DNA from: Cytophagales bacterium
GTDB lineage: Bacteria; Bacteroidota; Bacteroidia; Cytophagales; Thermoflexibacteraceae
Length of the DNA: 64,000 nucleotides
Direction: 5' to 3'
Assembly (NCBI GenBank): GCA_013299115.1
Contig: JAAFKA010000015.1
Coordinates: forward strand, 1 to 64,000
Made by a program: the position numbers and the translations under genes. This document shows, piece by piece, positions 26,474 to 64,000 of the stretch. Under the pieces are notes generated by a model, which did not search any database, was not told the origin of the DNA, and was given only the letters and a program-made list of their open reading frames with translations. Every line of letters starts with the position of its first letter. Position 1 is the first letter of the stretch.

Positions 26474-26668
26474 GCTCTGTATTGCGTAGCTATGGAATAC
26501 AATAACTACTTGTTATAAGGAAAAAAGGAAGTCATGCAGAATACTTGGCAAAACATTTACTATCATTATAACAAATGGTCAAAGGACGGTAGTTTTGAAA
26601 AATTATTTTCTTCCTCTCTTCAAGTCATACGAGTAGATTTAGCCTTAGAATGTATCCAATTAGATGGC

Positions 26669-26683
26669 AGCGGAGTGCCGCCC
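26669..26683 (-). repeat. 15-nt hairpin element GGGCGGNNNNCCGCT, copy 1
   Basis: Read on the minus strand: GGGCGGCACTCCGCT. It adds residues S-G-V-P-P between 'DG' and 'SHTPSKKG', where IS5 transposases have DGSHTP. Stem GCGG/CCGC, loop CACT. Confidence 0.75.
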
Positions 26684-26793
26684 AGTCATACGCCATCAAA
26701 AAAAGGGGTCAAAACGTTGAGTGGCAAAGAAGAAAAAGAGCACAAACCGTAAATAATTTAGTTTTTTGTGATAATAAACAACACATATTAGCT

Positions 26794-26808
26794 GGGCGGC
26801 ATTCCGCT
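26794..26808 (+). repeat. 15-nt hairpin element GGGCGGNNNNCCGCT, copy 2
   Basis: GGGCGGCATTCCGCT, opposite orientation to copy 1 in the same transposase. It encodes G-R-H-S-A; without it the protein reads 'ILAISDCISGNHHD', which is the expected family sequence. Confidence 0.75.
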
Positions 26809-27236
26809 ATTTCAGACTGTATTTCAGGCAATCACCACGATAGTTTTGAACTTGTCGAACAATTTGATAAATTAGTAACAGCAATGACCGAGAATGAAAT
26901 CAATTACCAAAATTCGCATCTGAATGCAGATATGGCTTTTGATGTCAAAGAATTTATCAAAATTGTGGAAGAAAAGCATAAAATGATAGCTAATATCCCT
27001 AAAAATACCAGAAATACAAAACAGATTAAACAAGAACACCGATATTTAAGTGAATATATTTACAGTTTTAGATTTAAAATAGAAGGAATATTTGCCTGGT
27101 TAGATACCTACAAACGTATCTTAATACGATTTGAATATTTAGCTAATAACTTTAAATCTTGGCTTAATATTGCTGCAACAATGGTAAATCTAAGGCATAA
27201 ATTCAACTAAACATCTCTATTGCCAATAAAGCAACC

Positions 27237-28940
27237 ATGAAAAACCAACTCTACTATGGCGACAACTTAGCAATCTTACGCCAATGTGTGCCTGATGAAA
27301 GCGTAGCTTTGTGTTACATAGACCCACCGTTTAACTCCAAACGGACTTATAACCAAATTTACAACAACATCGGCACAGAGGACAAGGCACAAGCACAGGC
27401 TTTTTTAGATACATGGACTTGGAATTTTGAAGCCCAAAAAGGCTATGACGAAATTATTGCCAATACATACAAAACCCAAACGCAACAAAGTATTGAGTTG
27501 CTCATGGGACTAAAAAATATTTTGGGGCAAGGTGAATTGTTGGCTTATTTGGTGAGCATGATGCAAAGAATTGCTGAGATTTATCGGGTGTTGCAACCTA
27601 CAGGCAGCTTTTACCTGCATTGCGACCCCACAGCCAGCCATTATTTAAAGTTGGTTTTAGATTGTATTTTTTGTGCAAGAGGCGGAGATTTTAAGAATGA
27701 AATTGTATGGCGTAGGCATTATAGCCACAATGACGGAAATAAATTTGGTTGTATTCATGATGTAATTTTTTATTACACCAAATCCAAAAATTATACCTAC
27801 AATCGTCAATTTATGCCTTATGACACAGAATACATAGAAAAAAACTACGCCACAACAGACGAAAAAACAGGGAGAAAATTTAGGTCGGTTTCAATGAATG
27901 CACAAGGGCAGGGCGAAGCCAAATATTTTGGTAGTGTCTTACTTACACCTCCTGCGGGTACGCATTGGCGGTGGTCGCAAGAGAGAATTAATGAAGCAAT
28001 GGAACAAGGTATTATTTATTTTACTAAAAATGGTGTGCCTCGTTACAAGCAATTTTTAGACGAAATGGAAGGGCTAACAGTGCAAGATACGTGGACAGAT
28101 TTTTATAGTTTATCCTCACAAGACAAAGAAAGATTGGGCTACCCCACCCAAAAACCCGAAGCCTTGTTGGAGAGAATTATCAAGGCAAGCAGCAATGAGG
28201 GAGATGTGGTTTTAGATTGTTATTGCGGTTGTGGCACAAGCATTGCGGTTGCCGAAAAGCTAAAACGCAAATGGATAGGCATTGACATTACCTACCAATC
28301 TATTTCGGTTATTCTCAAAAGATTTCACGAAAGTTTTGGCGGAGATTTTACCAAAGATTTGATAGACAAAGAAACTAAACAAGTCCTTCGCCCCGCCCAA
28401 ATCCAATTAGTAGGTGTTCCCCAAGATTTTGCGGGGGCTTTGGCTTTGGCAAACCGCCAAGACGATAGGGTTCGCAAGGAATTTGAAAAGTGGTTTGTGC
28501 TGCGGTTTAGCAACAATCAGGCACTGATAAACGACAAAAAAGGTGGCGATGGCGGCATCGATGGCATTGCTTATTTGTTAGATACAGACGAAAAAGGCAA
28601 AGAAACTTACAAAAAAATCATTTTTTCGGTCAAGTCCAGCAAAACCCTCAATCCTTCGGTTATTCGGGATTTGGCAGGCACTTTGGAAAGAGAACAGGCT
28701 GCGGTGGGCTATTTGCTAACTTTGTATCCTATGCCCAACTTAGAAAAAGAAGCAACTAAATATGGCAACTACGAAAGCAAATTGTTTCAACGGACTGTGC
28801 AGAAAATACAAGTTATAGACGCACAAATGCTGTTCGATGGCGAATTGTTAAGCCTCCCAACTGTTGATGTGCTGCGGACTGCCGAAAGGAAAAAGAAAAC
28901 AGATGTGGTGAGGGATTTGTTTGAGGAAGGAGAAGACTAA
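27237..28940 (+). CDS. Site-specific DNA methyltransferase fused to a PD-(D/E)XK nuclease-like domain
   Basis: 567 aa. The motif order is beta-class: catalytic motif 'DPPFNS' at residues 29-34 precedes the SAM motif 'VVLDCYCGCGTS' at 324-335, with 'GYPTQKPEALLERII' at 301-315 between. This class methylates adenine N6 or cytosine N4. Residues about 157-300 are the variable target-recognition part. Residues about 410-540 carry 'GGDGGIDGIAYLLD' and 'IIFSVKSSK', an Mrr-like PD-(D/E)XK core (D...SxK), suggesting restriction and modification in one chain. The first 156 residues are almost identical to the paralogue at 63119. It follows the IS5 remnant by 26 nt. The nuclease call is by motif and needs a fold search. 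Confidence 0.88.
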   Translation: MKNQLYYGDNLAILRQCVPDESVALCYIDPPFNSKRTYNQIYNNIGTEDKAQAQAFLDTWTWNFEAQKGYDEIIANTYKTQTQQSIELLMGLKNILGQGELLAYLVSMMQRIAEIYRVLQPTGSFYLHCDPTASHYLKLVLDCIFCARGGDFKNEIVWRRHYSHNDGNKFGCIHDVIFYYTKSKNYTYNRQFMPYDTEYIEKNYATTDEKTGRKFRSVSMNAQGQGEAKYFGSVLLTPPAGTHWRWSQERINEAMEQGIIYFTKNGVPRYKQFLDEMEGLTVQDTWTDFYSLSSQDKERLGYPTQKPEALLERIIKASSNEGDVVLDCYCGCGTSIAVAEKLKRKWIGIDITYQSISVILKRFHESFGGDFTKDLIDKETKQVLRPAQIQLVGVPQDFAGALALANRQDDRVRKEFEKWFVLRFSNNQALINDKKGGDGGIDGIAYLLDTDEKGKETYKKIIFSVKSSKTLNPSVIRDLAGTLEREQAAVGYLLTLYPMPNLEKEATKYGNYESKLFQRTVQKIQVIDAQMLFDGELLSLPTVDVLRTAERKKKTDVVRDLFEEGED

Positions 28941-43347: not shown

Positions 43348-43426
43348 GAATGTAGCATACGCTTTAGCGTGTGTAAAATGTAGCATACGCTTTAGCGTAT
43401 GTTACATTTTAGCGTATGCTACATTC
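43348..43426. repeat. Cluster of CACACGCTAAAGCGTATG palindromes
   Basis: Three inverted or direct units GAATGTAGCATACGCTTTAG... within 79 nt. This is the most abundant repeat of the window, also at 4804, 49525, 53415, 53523-53658, 56421, 58652-58747 and 61011. Confidence 0.8.
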
Positions 43427-47636: not shown

Positions 47637-47804
47637 TAAAAAAAATAATGGTTTTCTATATATGATTTGTAATTTTTTTGTGCAATTTTGGATTGTAAGA
47701 TAATTTTTTGGAAATGGAAACAAAAAGGTATTTCGTAGTAGGTTTTCTGCATCAAAATTTTTAATCCGTCAGTTTACCATATATTTTAAGGAACATCACT
47801 ACTT

Positions 47805-47889
47805 TTTAACACTTAGGCACTAAGAAACACTAAGTTTCACTTAGAATTTCTTAGTGAAACTTAGTGTTTCTTAGTGCCTAAGTGTTAAA
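47805..47889. repeat. Perfect long hairpin, 36-bp arms
   Basis: TTTAACACTTAGGCACTAAG... at 47805-47840 is exactly inverted at 47854-47889, with a 13-nt loop. Within each arm ACTTAG/CTAAGT units recur, so it looks built from short ACACTAAGTT blocks. It lies between serS and the AAA/PD-(D/E)XK gene, ending about 98 nt before the latter's ATG. Confidence 0.85.
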
Positions 47890-47986
47890 AGAAAGCTAAA
47901 AGTTTTGATGCGGAAAACCTAATTTCGTAGATTCAACTTTGAAATACAATTTTTTTATAGCTAACTTTACAAAAATCTCAATCCTC

Positions 47987-53414: not shown

Positions 53415-53440
53415 GAATGTAGCATACGCTTTAGCGTGTG
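53415..53440. repeat. CACACGCTAAAGCGTATG repeat, single unit
   Basis: GAATGTAGCATACGCTTTAG followed by CGTGTG, 5 nt after the SUI1 stop. Inverted relative to the tandem array at 53523. Confidence 0.65.
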
Positions 53441-53481
53441 ATTTTTGGTAGTGCAAAAAATAATGCTATGAACTTATTAGC

Positions 53482-53508
53482 AATAACATTTCTTTGAGAA
53501 ATGTTATT
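53482..53508. repeat. Palindromic repeat AATAACATTTCT / AGAAATGTTATT
   Basis: A perfect 12-bp-arm palindrome with a 3-nt centre, a member of the family at 30102 and 41937. It lies between the single unit and the tandem array of the other repeat. Confidence 0.65.
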
Positions 53509-53522
53509 ACGGAGCATTAAAA

Positions 53523-53658
53523 CGCCACACGCTAAAGCGTATGTTACATTCGAGGAAACGCCACACGCTAAAGCATATGTTACATTCGAGGAAACGCCAC
53601 ACGCTAAAGCATATGTTACATTCGAGGAAACGCCACACGCTAAAGCGTATGTTACATT
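53523..53658. repeat. Four-copy tandem array, exact 36-nt period
   Basis: Units begin at 53523, 53559, 53595 and 53631. Each is CGCCACACGCTAAAGCGTAT then GTTACATTCGAGGAAA, with only a G/A change in the core. The array is directly before the 3' end of the TonB receptor gene (stop at 53663). Both strands stay open because the period is a multiple of three, so annotated frames across it are artefacts. Confidence 0.85.
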
Positions 53659-53662
53659 TATT

Positions 53663-56029
53663 TTAAAACTTAAAATTATACGTAACAGAAGGCAAGAAAG
53701 AGCCAAATACCGAAAACTCTATGGCTTGCGTTTGGGTTAGGTTGTCGGGGTTTTGGCGGAAGTAAATAGCAAAAGGATTGCGGCGGTTGTAGATATTGTA
53801 AACCGCAAAAACCCATGAGCCTTTCCAACGGCGGTTTGGTTTTGCCCTGTCCCACGTGAGAGAAACGTCTAACCTGTGGTAAGCTGGTATTCTGAAATTA
53901 TTGCGACTTTCATTAGCACTGTTTGGAATATTGCCAATATCACGCAAAACAAACCTGTCTGTAGGGAAAGTACCAGGTGTACCACTTGCCAAAGTGAAGT
54001 TAGCCGATAAGGTAAGTTTTTTCGACAATTCATAAAAAGCCACTACATTTAGGTTGTGCGGTTTGTCAAAACGAGTAGGGAACCAGTCATCTTGGCTGAT
54101 TCCTGCCACTTTTCTCTCTGTTCGAGCCAATGTATAGCTTACCCAACCTGTGAATCTGCCTTTGTTCTTTTTGAGGTAAAACTCCAAACCGTAAGCCCTA
54201 CCGAAACCACTCAATAAATCTTGCTCAAAAAGTTCATTGAGGAACAACTCTGCACCATCTATGTAGTCTATTTGGTTTTGCATTTCTTTGTAATAGCCTT
54301 CTACCGAAAATTCGTAGCTGTCGTCTTTGAAGTTTCGGAAGTAGCCCAACGCAATTTGGTCTGCTATTTGGGGTTTTATGTTGTTTGAACTTGGTGTCCA
54401 AACGTCCAAAGGCGTAGCTGCTGCGGTGTTTGAAAGGAGGTGAATGTATTGAGCCATGCGGTTATAACTCAATTTGACTGAATTTTGCGAATTAAACACA
54501 TAATTCAGGGCTGCACGAGGCTCGAAGTTGCCATAATTTGGCGAATTAGCAAAACCACCACTTGACGTTTTACTTACAAAAGGTCGGCGTGTGCCTTGTA
54601 TGGCTGGGTTGCCAAAGTTATAGGTAAAATCTGTATTGTTGTTAAAATAAGAGTAACGCAAGCCGTATTGCAACGATAATTTGTCTGTAACTTTTTGCTC
54701 ATTGCCTACATACAAAGCCATTTCTAAGGCAGCTTTTTCTTCCAAAACTCTCACTATGCTTGTGTTGCCAGAGGTAACGGTGGTGCTACCGGGCTTAAAG
54801 GTATGCACAATAAGTTGTCCGCCAAAGGTCAGCGTATTTTTTGGACTTACGTAGTAGGTAAATTCAGGTTTTACACTGTAATTGATAATGTTCGATGCCC
54901 ATTGAAAGCCGTCGCCATTGGTAGTAGTGCCTAAAGTGCCTAAGAGGTAGTCGTAGTTGCTGTAATAACCAGTGAGGTTGAGAAACAATTTGTTGTTGAA
55001 AACGTGATTCCAACGCAAGGTGGCAGTGGCATTGCCCCAATTAAATCGGAAATTTGCCCCAAAGACATCTCTACCAAAATAACCCGACAAAAATAGCTTA
55101 TCTTTTTTGCCCAGCGTATAATTGGCTTTGGCGGTGAGGTCATAAAAATAAAATTGCGAATTGCTTAAACCTCCACTTAAAAAAGGCTTTGCCAATACGT
55201 CAATATAAGACCTGCGACCTGCAATGATAAAAGAACCTTTGTCTTTCACTATCGGAGCTTCTATACTGAAACGGCTGAAAATCAAGCCCAAACCTCCTTG
55301 CATAGTAAATTTTTTGTTGTTGCCCTCTTTCAAACGGACATCGAGCAAAGAAGACAACCTACCGCCATACTGGGCAGGAATACCACCTTTGACCAACTTA
55401 ATATCTTTGACTGCATCGGGATTGAAAACAGAGAAAAAACCAAACAAGTGCGAGGAGTTGAAAACAGGAGCCTCATCGAGCAGTACCAAATTTTGGTCTA
55501 TGTTGCCCCCACGTACATTGAAACCTGTAGCCCCTTCGCCTACGGTGCTTACCCCAGGTAAGAGTTGAATACTCCGCACCACGTCCACCTCACCCAACAG
55601 GGCAGGCATCTTGCGGAGGGTGGACATATCCACCTTGTTCACACTCATTTCAACAGCCTGTATGTTTTCGTCTGCTGCTCTTTCTGTTACCACCACCTCC
55701 GCCAAAGCCACGTCTTCGGTAGCAAATTCTATGCTGATTTGCACGTTTTCGGTCAGCGTAATGGTTTTGGTTTGCGTTTGGTAGCCTATAAAAGTATAAA
55801 CCAAAGTATAAGTGCCTTCGGGCAATGAAATGGCATAAAAACCATATTCGTTAGAGGTAGCCCCTGTTTTGAGTTCCTTCACATACATTGTAGCCCCTAT
55901 CAAAGTTTCGCCACTTTTGGCATCTTTGAGGTAGCCATTGATAGTAAATTTAGGGGTTTTGGTTTGGGCAACGGCTGTAAAACAAGCCAACAAGCACCAA
56001 AGGCTTGCTAAGAGTTTAAAATTTTTCAC
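53663..56029 (-). CDS. TonB-dependent outer-membrane receptor
   Basis: 788 aa from the GTG at 56029, chosen because it opens on a signal peptide ending 'LLACFTAVAQ'; a GTG at 56083 is in frame. Residues about 25-105 are a carboxypeptidase-like domain ('INGYLKDAKSGETLIGATMY'), usual in Bacteroidota receptors. The plug follows ('DVVRSIQLLPGVSTVGEGAT', 'GFNVRGGNIDQNLVLLDEAP'), then a 22-strand barrel ending in the aromatic 'SVTYNFKF'. It imports a bulky nutrient or iron compound using TonB energy. No SusD partner is adjacent, so a glycan role is unlikely. It ends 5 nt from the 36-nt repeat array. Confidence 0.92.
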   Translation of the reverse strand: MKNFKLLASLWCLLACFTAVAQTKTPKFTINGYLKDAKSGETLIGATMYVKELKTGATSNEYGFYAISLPEGTYTLVYTFIGYQTQTKTITLTENVQISIEFATEDVALAEVVVTERAADENIQAVEMSVNKVDMSTLRKMPALLGEVDVVRSIQLLPGVSTVGEGATGFNVRGGNIDQNLVLLDEAPVFNSSHLFGFFSVFNPDAVKDIKLVKGGIPAQYGGRLSSLLDVRLKEGNNKKFTMQGGLGLIFSRFSIEAPIVKDKGSFIIAGRRSYIDVLAKPFLSGGLSNSQFYFYDLTAKANYTLGKKDKLFLSGYFGRDVFGANFRFNWGNATATLRWNHVFNNKLFLNLTGYYSNYDYLLGTLGTTTNGDGFQWASNIINYSVKPEFTYYVSPKNTLTFGGQLIVHTFKPGSTTVTSGNTSIVRVLEEKAALEMALYVGNEQKVTDKLSLQYGLRYSYFNNNTDFTYNFGNPAIQGTRRPFVSKTSSGGFANSPNYGNFEPRAALNYVFNSQNSVKLSYNRMAQYIHLLSNTAAATPLDVWTPSSNNIKPQIADQIALGYFRNFKDDSYEFSVEGYYKEMQNQIDYIDGAELFLNELFEQDLLSGFGRAYGLEFYLKKNKGRFTGWVSYTLARTERKVAGISQDDWFPTRFDKPHNLNVVAFYELSKKLTLSANFTLASGTPGTFPTDRFVLRDIGNIPNSANESRNNFRIPAYHRLDVSLTWDRAKPNRRWKGSWVFAVYNIYNRRNPFAIYFRQNPDNLTQTQAIEFSVFGSFLPSVTYNFKF

Positions 56030-63118: not shown

Positions 63119-64000
63119 ATGAAAAACCAACTCTACTACGGCGACAACTTAGCAATCTTACGCCAATGTGTGCCTGATGAAAGCGTAGCTTTGTGTTACA
63201 TAGACCCGCCGTTTAACTCCAAACGGACTTATAACCAAATTTACAACAACATTGGCACAGAGGACAAGGCACAAGCACAGGCTTTTTTAGATACATGGAC
63301 TTGGAATTTCGAAGCCCAAAAAGGCTATGACGAAATTATTGCCAATACATACAAAACCCAAACCCAACAAAGTATTGAGTTGCTCATGGGACTAAAAAAT
63401 ATTTTGGGACAAGGTGAATTGTTGGCTTATTTGGTAAGTATGACCCAAAGAATTGCTGAGATTTATCGGGTGTTGCAACCTACAGGTAGCTTTTACCTGC
63501 ATTGCGACCCCACAGCCAGCCATTATTTGAAGTTGGTTTTAGATTGTATTTTTTGTGCAAGAGGCGGAGATTTTAAGAACGAAATCACTTGGAAAAGATA
63601 TGCAGTGCATAGCCTTTCCAAAAACCGTTATGATGCTATTTCGGATATTATTTTTTTCTATACCAAAACAGAAAAAGCACCTTTCAAATTGCAGTATGAA
63701 AATTTATCTGCCGAAGAAATTAGCAAAAAATTTCCGCACACCGAAGCCGAAACAGGCAGACGTTATCAACACGTAGCCTTAGAGCAAAGTTCAAATAAGC
63801 AAAGTGTAGGGCAAGAACGGATAATTCAGGGCAGAAAAGTAAAAAGTGCGTTGGGGTGGCGGTGGACACAAGAAACTTTTGACGCAAGATTAGCAAAAAA
63901 TCCTCACCTGATTTATTGGACAGAAACAGGTAAACCTCGTTATAAAATCTACGCAGACGAATATGCGGGCAGACCTGTTTCTAATATCTGGACAGATGTA
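63119..64000 (+). CDS. Second site-specific DNA methyltransferase-nuclease paralogue, 3' end cut by window
   Basis: Open to the last base of the window (294 codons seen). Residues 1-156 differ from the protein at 27237 by a single residue (Thr for Met near 109), and I count about a dozen nucleotide differences in the first 470 nt, nearly all synonymous. From codon 157 (63587) the two diverge abruptly: here 'WKRYAVHSLSKNRYDAISDI' replaces 'WRRHYSHNDGNKFGCIHDVI'. 'GWRWTQETFDARL' and 'GKPRYKIYADEYAGRPVSNI' then line up again with the paralogue. Motif IV 'DPPFNS' is present; motif I and the nuclease domain would lie beyond the window. A second specificity is expected. Confidence 0.88.
   Translation, partial: MKNQLYYGDNLAILRQCVPDESVALCYIDPPFNSKRTYNQIYNNIGTEDKAQAQAFLDTWTWNFEAQKGYDEIIANTYKTQTQQSIELLMGLKNILGQGELLAYLVSMTQRIAEIYRVLQPTGSFYLHCDPTASHYLKLVLDCIFCARGGDFKNEITWKRYAVHSLSKNRYDAISDIIFFYTKTEKAPFKLQYENLSAEEISKKFPHTEAETGRRYQHVALEQSSNKQSVGQERIIQGRKVKSALGWRWTQETFDARLAKNPHLIYWTETGKPRYKIYADEYAGRPVSNIWTDV

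Follow-up and report, generated by a model that had tools for sequence, protein, structure and literature searches.

Probable exchange of target recognition domains in paralogous single-chain methyltransferases with a predicted endonuclease fold in a Cytophagales bacterium

Two genes of a Cytophagales bacterium, copies A and B, encode proteins with closely similar ends and different central modules. We consider it probable that A and B are paralogues of one enzyme whose cassette-like target recognition domain (TRD) has been swapped through recombination in the conserved codons that flank it. The stretch of 64,000 nucleotides that was analysed (the window) lies on contig 7 of a genome of 5.5 Mb that is assembled into 74 contigs, and contains all of copy A and the beginning of copy B. 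The boundaries of the module were located by alignment, and the five genes of this kind in the genome (A, B, C, D and E) carry five different TRDs. The features of copies A and B are as follows.

27237-28940, forward strand: copy A, single-chain methyltransferase/restriction-endonuclease-fold protein of 567 amino acids with matches to PF01555 and PF04471.
27237-27704, forward strand: conserved 5' part of A, codons 1-156, with DPPF at residues 29-32; 97.2% nucleotide identity to B over codons 1-155, dS 0.138.
27705-28127, forward strand: putatively exchanged module of A, the TRD, codons 157-297; 33% amino acid identity to the module of B.
28128-28940, forward strand: conserved 3' part of A with motif I (residues 326-335) and, from the fold search, a predicted endonuclease fold at the C-terminus (about 394-542); no difference from B in the 686 nt that start at the left edge, dS 0 over codons 298-511.
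63119-64000, forward strand: portion of copy B in the window; the gene stops at contig position 64837.
63119-63586, forward strand: conserved 5' part of B, from the alignment to A.
63587-64000, forward strand: putatively exchanged module of B in the window, running on to contig position 64024; 33% amino acid identity to the module of A and 69% to the TRD of a gene in a relative (G002 C216).

The reading frame of B is open from the ATG at 63119 through the window end and encodes 572 amino acids in the host contig. A sequence-only reading of the window had placed the loss of similarity between the copies at 63587, codon 157, and alignment confirmed this edge (A 27705, B 63587). Over codons 1-155 there are 13 nucleotide differences, which are dispersed and change 12 of the 155 codons, 11 of them silently. 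For the middle part (codons 156-297) dN is 0.67 and dS is saturated. Similarity resumes at codon 298 (A 28128, B 64025, i.e. 25 nt beyond the window) in the sequence ERLGYPTQKP, and from there to the stop codon only 3 of 810 nt differ (99.6% DNA identity), all three within the final 126 nt. That reading had also staked the exchange of an internal module on the 3' half of the gene past position 64000, and the near-identity of this half bears the proposal out. Its choice of RWSQE/RWTQE and PRYK as the end of the module had to be corrected: both motifs lie inside the divergent module, where sliding DNA identity is 46-57%. The DNA common to A and B spans exactly from ATG to stop, and the flanking sequences are unrelated. 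A second case was found in G002, where two genes have ends that are 92/94% identical and TRDs that are 35% identical, one of the genes being broken off in the endonuclease domain. This pair, together with the unlinking of TRD and backbone over the whole family described below, further supports a separate history of the module.

Pfam analysis of copy A gave matches to PF01555 (N6_N4_Mtase) at residues 23-356 (4e-41) and to PF04471 (Mrr_cat) at residues 432-509 (2e-5). Beta-class amino-methyltransferases have a DPP(Y/F) motif, followed by the TRD and then by an FxGxG-like motif I, so that the TRD lies between the DPPF half and motif I. Copy A has this order, with DPPF at residues 29-32, the divergent module at 157-297 and motif I at 326-335. 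A structure of A predicted from a 21-row alignment had a mean pLDDT of 81.5, with block means of 90-95 over residues 181-280, which form part of the TRD. The folds nearest to this model were RsrI, CcrM, M.BceJIV and MboIIA (Z 22-23, rmsd 2.8-3.5 over 217-249 residues), and the top rank in Foldseek was held by EcoP15I chains, which were taken as Mod. The divergent module is the TRD of a beta-class N6-adenine DNA methyltransferase.

The C-terminal 192 residues were modelled separately (pLDDT 83) and matched MspJI, AspBHI, BspD6I and FokI (Z 8.1-9.8); the restriction-enzyme rows had Z scores of 8.0-9.8 over 123-135 residues with an rmsd of 3.0-4.5, and rows for RNA polymerase subunits were also present, ranked under the restriction enzymes. 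In Foldseek, MspJI was matched with an E value of 1e-4, and only two rows reached E<=0.001. The predicted domain combines a restriction endonuclease fold with a conserved Asp and x-Lys, as in PD-(D/E)XK/Mrr-type enzymes: Asp442 is kept in 58 of 59 family members (Glu in one), and Lys466 in all 58 that reach that far. These residues and the modelled fold make nuclease activity of the C-terminal domain likely. It is graded as likely rather than established because the PF22722 model, named 'inactive restriction endonuclease', also matches, under the cut-off in A, B and D. Among seven further members, PF22722 was over the cut-off in five and outscored Mrr_cat in six, and the position two before Lys466 varies (Ser 35, Gln 15, Glu 8; n=58). 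Both observations would fit the alternative that the C-terminal domain is no nuclease and that these proteins are orphan methyltransferases, in which TRD swaps alter an epigenetic mark and not restriction. We regard this as rather doubtful, given that the Asp and Lys are kept even in distant members and that the top fold neighbours are restriction enzymes. The alternative concerns function, and is compatible with the exchange of modules.

The relation between TRD and backbone was analysed over the family. All three parts were present in 77 of 83 candidate ORFs, and 59 of these were kept after the removal of two partial duplicates and 16 sequences under the score thresholds (N>130, R>50); one kept member, L027, breaks off in the endonuclease domain. 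The lengths of the 59 members, this truncated one included, are 466-622 amino acids. Over all 1711 pairs, the Spearman correlation of identities was 0.82 between the N and C parts, 0.008 between N and TRD and 0.014 between C and TRD (0.65, 0.11 and 0.09, respectively, in the closest 39 members). The median TRD identity was 23-31% across all backbone bins, and the near-zero correlation of the TRD is partly an effect of saturation, since most TRD pairs are too diverged. Therefore, the evidential weight lies on the 31 informative pairs with TRD identity of at least 50%, whose backbone identities span about 39% to 94%; here the TRD correlated weakly with N (0.36, p 0.05) and not significantly with C (0.28, p 0.13). 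A TRD partner at this level was found for 35 of the 59 proteins, and it was also the best backbone partner in 2 of the 35, one reciprocal cyanobacterial pair.

Backbones that differ were found to carry similar TRDs, and near-identical backbones to carry TRDs that differ. The TRD of A is 77% identical to that of a Dysgonamonadaceae MAG protein with ends of 62/46%, and 70% identical to another with ends of 46/37%; the nearest kin of the TRD of B, at 69%, is that of G002 C216, which comes from the same bacterial family and has a similarly distant backbone. In 13 pairs, the TRD identity is at least 60% and exceeds both flanks by at least 8 points (e.g. 42/74/36, with the TRD in the middle). The averaged profile of these pairs is the mirror image of the one obtained from 32 pairs in which the ends are alike and the TRDs unlike; its edges fall near residues 157 and 300. 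An extension of similarity to residue 348 in the 13 pairs was discarded as a signal, as it may simply reflect the conserved motif I. Trees of 20 members built from the TRD and from the backbone disagree, and all six clade tests ended in rejection; among them, TRD data reject A+B (p-AU 3e-79) and the G002 pair (1e-4), and backbone data reject the grouping of A with its TRD kin (1e-34). The clades A+B and G002 pair were fixed from the backbone and the other clades were picked after identities or trees had been viewed, so the p values of the latter are descriptive. Over the family, the histories of TRD and backbone are unlinked.

For neither TRD was a close donor found, the best matches being those at 77% (A) and 69% (B); in viral contigs, the TRD of A had one 42% match and that of B none. 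Since its own genome holds no close donor of either, the TRDs of A and B probably came from outside this genome. The third-position GC content is 32% in the TRDs of A and B and 43-45% in the ends, with amino acid make-up uncontrolled. For this reason, and because the other copies also have lower third-position GC in the TRD (C just slightly), base composition was set aside as evidence.

The ends of A and B bear on how the pair arose. Synonymous differences amount to 11.5 of 91.5 sites in codons 1-155 and to 0 of 138 in codons 298-511, and dS is 0.03 in the last 56 codons. The exact run of identity from the right edge of the TRD is 686 nt; it was equalled in 1 of 20,000 codon shuffles with both ends pooled, and shuffling of the right end alone gave p 0.016 (500 shuffles). 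It is extremely unlikely that A and B are ancient duplicates with constrained ends and a middle part under relaxed or diversifying selection, without any recombination. The TRD is the part of a methyltransferase expected to evolve fast, and dN in the ends is low, as this explanation would have it; however, protein constraint cannot produce 0 of 138 synonymous differences, the near-identical synonymous sites in the ends refute it, and the TRD trees reject A+B. A simple duplication followed by a TRD swap is disfavoured as well, because the ends differ in age (dS 0.138 versus 0). Most simply, the data can be read as two backbones about 2.5% apart, overlaid by one recent conversion tract from the right edge of the TRD to near codon 525; the 686-nt identical tract suggests that A and B underwent gene conversion recently. 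A similar patch was found in the tandem pair of G002 (L054 2205-3908 and 4001-5686, 92 nt apart), whose members share the first 95 nt from the ATG exactly and diverge sharply thereafter. Among C, D and E, the search for short conversion tracts gave no strong signal (smallest p 0.024 of six tests, uncorrected).

The earlier proposal of recombination between distant copies is supported for the right flank, where the run of identity is found. The two occurrences of the 686-nt repeat lie 36 kb apart on the same contig and could owe their identity to assembly or polishing, in which case the claim of recent conversion would be void and the difference in TRD would stand. That reads from one gene's ends served both copies is very unlikely, despite the fact that an exact 686-nt repeat could be merged or polished to identity in an assembly of 74 contigs: the left ends differ in 12 scattered codons, 11 of them silently, both genes are intact with distinct flanks, and the same pattern is present in another genome (G002).

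Conversion may also be given the whole role in the A/B pair. In that case, two old paralogues with TRDs of their own at two loci would have had their ends homogenised by conversion that skipped the TRD, and neither locus would have seen a replacement since then. DNA shared from ATG to stop between unrelated flanks fits conversion of resident genes better than segmental duplication, and the unequal ages of the ends (dS 0.138 on the left, 0 on the right) and the tandem pair of the relative, identical only over the first 95 nt from the ATG, point the same way. Against it, the same TRDs occur on distant backbones throughout the family, which means that TRD transfer does happen, and the TRD of A is 77% like one borne on a 62/46% backbone. 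We consider this reading unlikely; for the A/B pair, it and the swap of a cassette-like TRD are mutually exclusive. Under replacement in place and homogenisation of the ends alike, the TRD and the chassis have separate histories. As the kin of the TRD of A sit on distant backbones and that of the TRD of B on a similarly distant one within the same bacterial family, A may tentatively be taken as the recipient of a foreign TRD and B as the older pairing. A grouping of A+B with the G002 pair was neither supported nor rejected by backbone data (p-AU 0.485; support 58/20).

The surroundings of the five copies were examined for mobile elements. The further copies and the elements are:

Contig 29: copy C, whose start would be TTG.
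Contig 7, 73651-75189, minus strand: copy D.
Contig 74: copy E.
26650-27207, forward strand: probable IS transposase remnant upstream of A, with DDE_Tnp_1_2, DDE_Tnp_4 and DDE_Tnp_1 matches, all under the curated Pfam cut-offs.
Contig 7, 64942-66246 (L021 4943-6247): IS element that carries a DDE_Tnp_1 transposase between 22-bp terminal inverted repeats; it lies 104 bp beyond the stop of B and outside the window.

It had been suggested that A lies beside an IS5 remnant and that no mobile element separates B from the chaperone operon and the TauE/SafE gene. The DDE fragment at 26650-27207 is present, with Pfam scores that stay below the curated cut-offs; the statement about B holds upstream of the gene, and downstream the IS element follows the stop codon after 104 bp. 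Therefore, transposase sequence adjoins both copies. The far end of this IS is overlapped by an ORF with weak AAA_15 similarity. A local shufflon, which had been considered improbable from the start, was rejected: TRD queries against the 74-contig genome (E<=1) matched only known methyltransferase reading frames, and no silent spare cassettes. A distant methyltransferase relative on contig 4 (158645-159834, minus strand) consists of two open frames (155 and 473 amino acids) and is possibly broken.

To look for empty sites, relatives were searched for the protein next to each of three copies: TauE for B and, both named by eye, a PhoH-like protein for A and a carbamoyltransferase for E. In 10-kb stretches of the relative G001, dnaJ/grpE were not next to TauE and no family member was next to the PhoH-like gene; the sigma-factor neighbour was absent from the 1.5-kb flanks of the carbamoyltransferase gene in 7 of 7 relatives. 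Searches for target duplications around the five copies returned only matches of 10-18 nt, at the level of chance. Inspection by eye of the ORF lists, with a profile search of some neighbours, revealed no Res-like neighbour of B, C, D or E. Elsewhere in the window, a short repeat around CACACGCTAAAGCGTATGTTACATT occurs at 43384, 49525, 53423-53673, 56419 and 58722, with a 36-nt period at 53526-53673, and a sequence similar to it lies upstream of a family member in G002. Near-perfect long hairpins were found at 1635-1730 and 47804-47890 (arms of 47 and 43 nt, 94% and 98% complementary, respectively).

The family was sampled by matches to the 3' part at E<=1e-60, with the own genome included in every count. 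Its distribution is patchy: in the order, class and phylum samples, the genomes with matches numbered 8 of 390, 5 of 395 and 2 of 395, respectively, and within the order sample the number of places per genome was five in the own genome, four in G003, three in G002 and two in G009. The family occurs in Bacteroidota, Cyanobacteria and other phyla, as well as on plasmids and phages. One place with at least 80% query coverage was present in 7 of 14 matching plasmid records and in 28 of 29 matching phage records, 22 of the latter being Streptomyces phages; identity was about 36-40% among the plasmid and phage matches listed (20 of the 29 phage records). Four records were inspected singly. Two are phages, one of Streptomyces with an annotated serine integrase and one of Mycobacterium with an integrase note; the other two are a Microbacterium plasmid and a conjugative plasmid of Mesorhizobium. 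Full-length relatives in a Streptomyces phage (L225 3998-5626) and a Mycobacterium phage (L227 3001-4626) have the endonuclease-like domain with the Asp and Lys retained, and would be an odd cargo for a phage if they cut DNA.

In the mechanism that we favour, the chassis would consist of a catalytic DPPF half, the TRD, a SAM-binding half and a C-terminal domain with a predicted Mrr/MspJI-like endonuclease fold. Homologous recombination in GGDFKNEI on the left and ERLGYPTQKPE on the right would place different TRDs into the same chassis, where every TRD may read its own DNA motif. Because methylation and cutting would both depend on the same TRD, a single swap would shift the two together, and the new enzyme would still protect its host. 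Later gene conversion between A and B, halted on the left by the non-matching TRD, may have made codons 298-525 identical. In the papers considered, TRD exchange is described chiefly for pathogens that carry Type I and Type III systems; here it is seen in a compact chassis encoded by a single gene, where one TRD would serve methylation as well as probable cleavage. Should both activities be real, every natural chimera is a ready experiment in the transplantation of recognition modules, with natural cut points at residues 157 and 298 of A. A and B also suggest a testable picture of conversion tracts that halt at a non-matching module, leaving paralogues with a common frame and different targets. 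As a tentative extension, less likely than not, this little-described single-chain beta-methyltransferase/Mrr-fold family could be an open platform for TRD exchange. Several unlinked copies in some genomes would share a chassis kept uniform by conversion unable to cross the TRD, and the cell would have a set of restriction specificities in one format that could be refreshed from outside.

Several known systems resemble the one described here in part. Type III Mod proteins work with a separate Res helicase-nuclease; here, the endonuclease fold is on the methyltransferase chain, and A, B and D gave no Pfam match to a helicase or ATPase domain. Movement of TRDs in Type III mod genes of H. pylori was reportedly described by Furuta and Kobayashi in 2012. 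Recombination at conserved motifs moves these TRDs between non-orthologous genes and across species (PMC3983042), which is the same process of TRD movement between genes. In modA of Neisseria and Haemophilus, a variable DRD lies between conserved 5' and 3' regions, and the DRDs move as whole units and are related to DRDs of other species (PMC3311624). The conserved ends around a variable recognition domain are shared with our genes; there, the variants are phase-variable alleles between strains, whereas here they are paralogues in one genome. In the single-chain Type IIG/IIL enzymes BcgI, Eco57I and MmeI, one TRD serves both activities and allows a one-step change of specificity (PMC4833311), and one TRD would likewise serve methylation and predicted cleavage here. 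Type IIG enzymes, however, are gamma-class with a TRD that is C-terminal or on a separate subunit (PMC3874165, PMC4081073), and their cleavage domain is N-terminal (PMC3874165). By motif order and fold neighbours our proteins are beta-class, with a central TRD and a C-terminal endonuclease fold. With both predicted domains and their conserved residues on one chain, they are candidates for Type IIC, taken broadly as R and M activity in a single polypeptide. The C-terminal domain has the fold of MspJI and Mrr nucleases, with the Q-x-K variant in 15 of 58 members. MspJI recognises modified DNA by an SRA-like domain (PMC12707154), in contrast to the methyltransferase that is the partner domain here. 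In the literature searched, with REBASE outside its scope, no description of a single chain joining a beta-class methyltransferase to a C-terminal Mrr fold was found, nor is this architecture described in the available parts of PMC12707154 and PMC12839542. The evolutionary process is already known; the enzyme chassis is less familiar, and differs from the single-chain kinds in the cited papers.
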